Source: an uncultured Alphaproteobacteria bacterium
Lineage (GTDB): Bacteria; Pseudomonadota; Alphaproteobacteria; RF32; CAG-239
Length of the DNA stretch: 48,444 nucleotides
Assembly: GCA_944391505.1 (NCBI GenBank)
Contig: CALXTV010000014.1
Span: 1 to 48,444 of the forward strand
Direction of reading: 5' to 3'
Below the pieces are notes generated by a model. It saw nothing but the letters and a program-made list of their open reading frames with translations. It did no database searches and was not told where the DNA came from. The position numbers and the translations under genes are program-made. Each line of letters begins with the position of its first letter. The stretch's first letter is position 1. This document shows positions 2,942-3,190 of the stretch, piece after piece.

Positions 2942-3089
2942 ACGGATGTTCAGAAACCGTATATTACCAGACGGCTCGGCCTATTTGGCTCGAAGCCTTA
3001 TTCAGCCGACATCCGTCCAATATAGACATAAGAAGTCGGCATAAAATTTTAAGTCGTTATGCAAACGACTGGTAATAAAAGGGTTTCTG
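2942..3089. ncRNA. Highly structured element, possible ncRNA or island-boundary element with pseudoknot potential
   Basis: Two perfect arms close the element: CAGAAACC (2951-2958) pairs with GGTTTCTG (3082-3089), and TATTACCAG (2962-2970) pairs with CTGGTAATA (3069-3077). Inside, CGGCT (2972-2976) pairs with AGCCG (3004-3008) and contains the hairpin GGCT/AGCC (2987-2997). AGTCGTT (3052-3058) pairs with AACGACT (3064-3070), and GCCGAC (3005-3010) with GTCGGC (3035-3040). ACGGATGT (2942-2949), just outside the closing stem, is fully complementary to ACATCCGT (3009-3016) inside it, giving a pseudoknot or an alternative fold. Transcribed strand and family are unknown. It does not match the conserved cores of 6S, tmRNA, RNase P or SRP RNA that I know. 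It sits where AT-rich island gives way to core composition. Confidence 0.5.
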
Positions 3090-3150
3090 ACGCCCTGGAC
3101 GCGTTATCTATGCATCTGAAGTCAGCTTAGCTTTTGAATGTGGAAATGTA

Positions 3151-3190
3151 AAGAAGAAAATACCGAACGCCTTTTATAAAAACGTTCGGT
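3151..3190 (-). terminator. Intrinsic terminator downstream of the small membrane protein
   Basis: ACCGAACG (3162-3169) pairs with CGTTCGGT (3183-3190). On the minus strand the hairpin is followed by ATTTTCTTCTT, a moderate U-tract. It closes the unit that ends at 3218. Confidence 0.6.

Follow-up and report, generated by a model that had tools for sequence, protein, structure and literature searches.

The element at positions 2942-3089 of the window, by which we mean the whole stretch of 48,444 nucleotides analyzed here from an uncultured Alphaproteobacteria bacterium, is real and is a leader RNA encoded on the minus strand. It belongs to a large family of 5' leader RNAs of about 150 nt. Over 100 copies are present in uncultured Alphaproteobacteria from the gut, with up to 31 in one genome. 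Judging from the sequences, it is very probably a riboswitch-like leader of an uncatalogued family, and the copy in the window would have been orphaned by the insertion of an island at AACATCCG. The original prediction, made from the letters alone, had already proposed a riboswitch-like reading, and the RNA does indeed have several helices, some of which exclude each other, and a true pseudoknot.

In the window the unit extends along the minus strand from about 3153, where promoter-like boxes are found, to 2943. A stretch of 165 nt folds with a z-score of about -6.3 on either strand, a value matched by none of 200 shuffled sequences. Read as RNA, the plus strand would be about equally stable, but the ORF, the terminator, the SD and the model scores all favor the minus strand, which for this reason was taken as the RNA strand; the original prediction had not chosen between the two. 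The core of the leader (helices P1 to P5 with PK1 and PK3) covers 153 nt (2943-3095, minus strand, as are all the parts that follow) and reached 148.7 bits with our covariance model R1. The two-part closing stem that had been predicted corresponds to P1, in which TCAGAAACC (3082-3090) pairs with GGTTTCTGA (2950-2958), and to P2 (3071-3077 with 2962-2968), and both of them covary. P3 is a hairpin (AGTCGT...ACGACT, 3052-3070) whose loop GCATA (3062-3058) pairs with TATGC (3043-3039) in the pseudoknot PK3. P4 (3005-3040) brings together GCCGAC (3040-3035) and GTCGGC (3010-3005), P5 (2971-3016) is made of ACGG/CCGT, TCGGC/GCCGA and GGC/GCC, and in PK1 the inner strand CGGATGT (3009-3015) pairs with ACATCCG at 2943-2949. 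Formation of P4 excludes P5 and part of PK1, and P5 in turn excludes P4. Because they have in common a strand around 3005-3016, P4, P5 and PK1 cannot all form together. The 3' switching strand AACATCCG (2943-2950), which is also the att core, has as its partner either the PK1 inner strand or, in homologues, the SD GGATGTT.

The unit is longer than the extent originally assigned to the element and includes a 5' hairpin, P0 (GATGC/GCGTC, 3098-3116), just 5' of the core and the promoter-like boxes (3124-3153), which we read from the sequence as a -35 TTTACA (3153-3148), a spacer of 18 nt and a -10 TAAGCT (3129-3124). A hairpin in the P0 position was found in 91 of 97 copies (score of at least 5), with a mean score of 7.2 against 4.1 for shuffled sequences, and its stem sequences differ nearly throughout among copies. 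In the homologues the top -10-like box mostly ends 28-29 nt ahead of GGG; the promoter score of 8.3 is barely higher than the 8.0 of shuffled sequences, and the boxes are weakly supported. There is no plausible protein gene over the element, as had been stated before.

The folded core is conserved and backed by covariation, including that of its mutually exclusive helices. We used a model alignment of 99 distinct copies, fitted to the nested helices, so that PK1, PK3 and P4 lie outside the model. Taking the nested helices together with PK3 (P1, P2, P3, P5 and PK3), 94.4% of the cells were paired and 36 of the 39 pairs had changed on both sides, a number that none of 500 shuffles equaled. As a control the partners were slid by 1-3 columns, and pairing fell to 35-43%. 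Compensatory changes affected 7 of the 9 pairs of P1 (96% of cells paired), all 7 of P2, all 6 of P3 (98% paired) and 11 of the 12 of P5 (93-99.6% paired), and they appeared as well in PK3, where 73-82% of the cells were paired. P4 was paired in 94% of the cells, with compensatory changes in 6 of 6 pairs. PK1 reached the same 94% and had 38 doubly changed cells, compared with a shuffled mean of 6.5. The covariation check in homologues that had been suggested for this element was passed decisively. The perfect complementarity noticed between ACGGATGT (2942-2949) and ACATCCGT (3009-3016) is thus accompanied by compensatory changes in homologues, and the helices said to exclude each other (P4, P5 and the pseudoknot) do use one strand and covary each on its own. 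The sequences AATAAG and AAATARG are conserved in internal loops.

A second copy, 79% identical, is present in the genome from which the window comes, and 57 relatives provided more than 40 matches, most of them with sharp ends at window positions 2943 and about 3096-3100. Scanning GTDB with a pattern recovered at least 94 stretches; among the matches listed, the titles were those of Alphaproteobacteria or, loosely, proteobacteria, and most were MAGs. Animal guts were the source of many, and 'Azospirillum sp. CAG:239' was one of the titles. With the R1 model, 87 of the 101 genomes from the window's family had copies, as did 17 of 289 sampled throughout the class; of 398 from the whole phylum 3 were positive, each of them from the Alphaproteobacteria. 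Another 12 families of this class also have homologues, with weak scores in three of these. One genome of 1.5 Mb (G095) gave 31 model hits (loci L172-L200). At two loci (L118, 1748-2135, and L160, 1501-1955) a 5'-truncated copy lies immediately ahead of a full one, and that of L118 starts right behind the stop codon of another gene. An origin in phages or plasmids was considered and rejected, since an exact pattern search of IMG/VR gave no hits and a plasmid search gave no copies. One scaffold labeled as UNVERIFIED 'Bacteriophage sp.' (MT836653.1, L277) carries a leader copy (578-722), an autotransporter gene and recombinase-like ORFs; it is possibly a bacterial mobile element and not a phage.

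The homologues share a common layout: promoter-like boxes, P0, core, intrinsic terminator, AAGGATGTT and ATG. Of 91 copies, 87 have a terminator-like site behind them, compared with 33 when the same bases are shuffled. An ORF of at least 50 amino acids begins 20-150 nt downstream in 85 of the 91 copies; on the opposite side the number was 17. We analyzed 130 downstream ORFs, which fall into 48 clusters; crude rules assigned a signal-peptide-like start to 93 of them and a lipobox to 40. Pfam matches among them were to PEGA lipoprotein, autotransporter, OMP beta-barrel, glycosyltransferases, Stealth protein, EcoRI-type methylase and Mrr endonuclease, and pilin-like N-methyl motifs were seen below the cut-off. 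By these sequence features, the controlled genes would mostly code for lipoproteins, autotransporters, outer-membrane proteins, pilins and glycosyltransferases. The G095 copies that were read precede paralogous cysteine-rich secreted proteins, each with its own leader (there was one weak Lcl_C match). An antitoxin RNA, which had been suggested as another possibility and which in type III systems consists of tandem repeats ahead of a toxin endoribonuclease, does not fit with single units located before dozens of unrelated gene families and not in a repeat array beside a toxin. At locus L082 (2767-2918) a copy was found without the usual terminator and ORF; here the break is just inside the 5' arm of the terminator and not at AACATCCG.

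Subfamilies differ in the 3' strand AACATCCG (AACACCC, AACTCCC, AACCTCC, AAAATCC), with which the inner partner changes to the last base (AACATCCT/AGGATG, AACATCCA/TGGATG, AACTCCCC/GGGGAG). The SD often follows the 3' strand too (GGGTGTT, GGAGTT, GGAGGT, GGATTT). When the copies were classified by their 3' strand (ACATCC, ACACCC, ACTCCC, AAATCC, ACCTCC), both the inner strand and the SD tracked the class, and in each case 0 of 300 permutations reached the observed complementarity. GGATGTT ahead of a start codon was absent from all 716 ORFs that have no element upstream and present in 29 ORFs behind one. In the MFE folds, 20 of 37 leaders had AACAYCC paired with the SD at a place outside the terminator hairpin. 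Many copies lack a full SD complement and some divergent ones have no recognizable terminator, indicating that either platform can be missing. An example is L278, a divergent copy from a closed genome, with no obvious terminator before its ORF and a GGAC near the start codon that complements its GTCC. We also considered an antiterminator pairing of 5' GGGC with the GCCC of the terminator arm, attractive in the main subfamily, but it is not conserved in the divergent ones.

The mechanism that we propose would work around the intrinsic terminator, with AACATCCG pairing either with CGGATGT inside the leader (PK1) or with the SD GGATGTT downstream, and with P4 and P5 vying for the strand that carries CGGATGT. 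In the ground (OFF) state P4, the terminator and the SD pairing would silence the gene. In the ON state a trigger would stabilize PK1, P5 and PK3, the SD would be released and the gene turned on. The alternative covarying helices and the order leader, terminator, SD and ORF are observed, while the direction of the switch is what we infer from them. As for the trigger, a small molecule is our preferred candidate, with roughly even chances; otherwise it could be a protein, a physical cue or another RNA. Copy numbers like these resemble a regulon more than feedback in a metabolic pathway, and the trigger may therefore be a signal generally important to the cells.

A tyrosine-integrase island has probably recombined at AACATCCG (attR, 2943-2950), parting the leader from its gene. 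That the element sits at an island boundary, with a change of composition from island to core, was part of the original prediction; the GC composition does shift at about 2942, the island side being AT-rich (27% GC), and what can now be added is the insertion of a tyrosine-integrase island at the 3' end of the leader. The right-hand part of this putative island covers positions 1-2942 and is interrupted by the contig edge at 1. Its integrase end is on a separate contig of the same genome (C27, locus L244; the window is on C14). The attL found there, adjoining a 601-amino acid DUF6538 and Phage_integrase protein, has a terminator and a lipoprotein gene behind a half element of 20 nt. Several features expected from a tyrosine-integrase island are found here, namely the integrase beside one att site, a direct repeat at both ends (AACATCCG, the 8-bp core common to attL and attR) and an empty site in relatives. 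The empty site is in G077, sister of a genome of another genus (G071) whose own copy meets the island edge; the corresponding copy of G077, 76% identical to that of the window, is uninterrupted and followed by terminator, SD and lipoprotein gene. Besides, joining the two flanks in silico produced an unbroken alignment to another genome (G002), with 89% identity over 833 columns. The window copy does not have the terminator, SD and ORF expected 3' of a leader; it would be an orphan leader, the terminator, the SD and the lipoprotein gene having been moved by the island behind attL. Any transcript of this leader after the insertion would run into the island and have no terminator of its own, and the lipoprotein gene would retain terminator and SD and lose the switch.

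Among the copies read, two stop exactly at AACATCCG, that of the window and another one. In G071, a leader copy is followed from the same base by 119 bp identical to the island edge of the window. This junction is located at a contig end, where the exact match is of 128 nt, i.e. k+1 for a contig named k127, a length that would fit an island occurring twice, in different genomic contexts, in the same assembly. In a search for the same integration by related integrases, only the C27 integrase was seen to adjoin a half element, and of 30 integrase loci one had a full leader copy beside it. A different, more distant integrase adjoins a full leader copy in G071 (L272, G071:C12 near 91397-93513). 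The island part in the window has on the plus strand a gene for a defence-like AAA_15/AAA_21 ATPase (610-2025) and one for a possible type II restriction endonuclease (2027-2566; weak RE_TdeIII match below the cutoff, E 0.0045). For this pair (610-2566) the best PADLOC models were HEC-02A, NsnB, PD-T4-4 and AriA, and the two genes, which lie at the island's right end, may together form a defence system. Past the integrase (L246, G000:C27, 3254-6099) there are an ORF of 235 amino acids, an OMP-barrel-like ORF and a resolvase-like ORF.

We have searched the window and 14 diverse loci against Rfam 15, as the original prediction had advised, and only tRNAs scored above the gathering threshold, with no family matching the element. 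The best hit at relaxed thresholds, sRNA-Xcc1, reached 19.3 against 53 bits, which is chance level. ARAGORN detected in the window only a tRNA-Lys and no tmRNA, and the tmRNA-like reading that had also been mentioned is not supported. We did not find a description of the motif in the open-access literature, most subscription papers lying outside that coverage. The leader is located in the 5' UTR of a same-strand gene (85 of 91 copies; the gene of the window copy is on C27) and has a platform with exclusive structures (PK1, SD pairing, P4, P5 and the terminator-like site of 87 of 91). With riboswitches that have terminator or SD platforms it shares the 5' leader position, a covarying pseudoknotted core, exclusive helices, a terminator and SD masking. 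It differs from them in having no Rfam 15 match, in its surface and accessory regulon with up to 31 copies per genome and in that one strand does both the pseudoknot and the SD masking. By its features it would work like a riboswitch or an attenuator leader; what defines a riboswitch is that a small ligand binds directly and alters expression.

Other explanations were also considered. EAR/put/LoaP-type antitermination leaders are structured RNAs ahead of a terminator and cell-surface genes, like those described here, but in our family the terminator region and the SD base-pair with the element itself. A trans-acting RNA-binding protein or antiterminator (LoaP, RfaH-like, put/EAR) might control the leader, with the helices being a protein site plus platform. 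The genes of the regulon are accessory or code for surface and secreted proteins, and they share no metabolic pathway that would name a ligand; copy numbers of up to 31 per genome would suit a global regulator. However, the fold is compact, with two pseudoknots and internal loops of conserved sequence, as is typical of ligand-binding aptamers, and we hold this explanation to be unlikely, if worth serious attention. The c-di-GMP (GEMM) riboswitches control adhesins, pilins and secreted proteins and are found in several copies per genome, and the leader family is like them in both respects. That it is a variant of these, as the regulon of adhesins, pilins and surface proteins might suggest, is very improbable: GGDEF proteins were present in 10 of 12 genomes searched, but one genome (G009) lacks a GGDEF domain despite its 7 copies, and there is no match to the c-di-GMP families of Rfam.

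The terminated leader might instead act in trans as an sRNA, with its free AACATCC end binding to GGATGTT at the translation starts of other members of the family. AACATCC does complement the SD of many copies, and orphan leaders like that of the window could still produce such an sRNA, but the SD of each copy matches the sequence class of its own leader, which indicates action in cis and leaves this explanation with a slight chance. Finally, integron attC sites are folded sequences of similar length used by a tyrosine recombinase, and the fold could act as single-stranded DNA, an attC-like site spread by the integrase, with the RNA features being incidental. A tyrosine-integrase island attaches at the element in two genera, and the copies are dispersed, mostly single and ahead of single genes. 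Yet the fixed orientation before ORFs, the U-tract terminator and the covariation of the SD with the 3' strand require RNA; related integrases are seldom near full copies, no cassette arrays appeared among the copies seen, and, in contrast to attC, the element is 5' of a gene with terminator and SD, and no more than an 8-bp core is shared. We consider this possibility highly improbable. The island also resembles those that use tRNA and tmRNA genes as att sites, where a tyrosine integrase likewise recombines with the 3' end of a sequence coding for RNA and a short direct repeat remains; the difference is that the target here is a multi-copy cis-regulatory leader and that integration parts it from its gene.

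The riboswitch-like leader is a widespread and strongly supported family of regulatory RNA without an Rfam entry. Three partners compete for one strand, which opens the way to direct tests with compensatory mutations, and the island provides a case in which the integration site is a regulatory leader RNA and not a tRNA gene. The family precedes outward-facing proteins in poorly known bacteria of the animal gut. We suggest, tentatively and at somewhat less than even chances, that it may be a new class of ligand-sensing RNA running a regulon of surface and secreted proteins (up to 31 leaders per genome), that it would sense a metabolite or signal without a known riboswitch, and that islands would exploit it as a multi-copy landing site where genes are cut from their switch.
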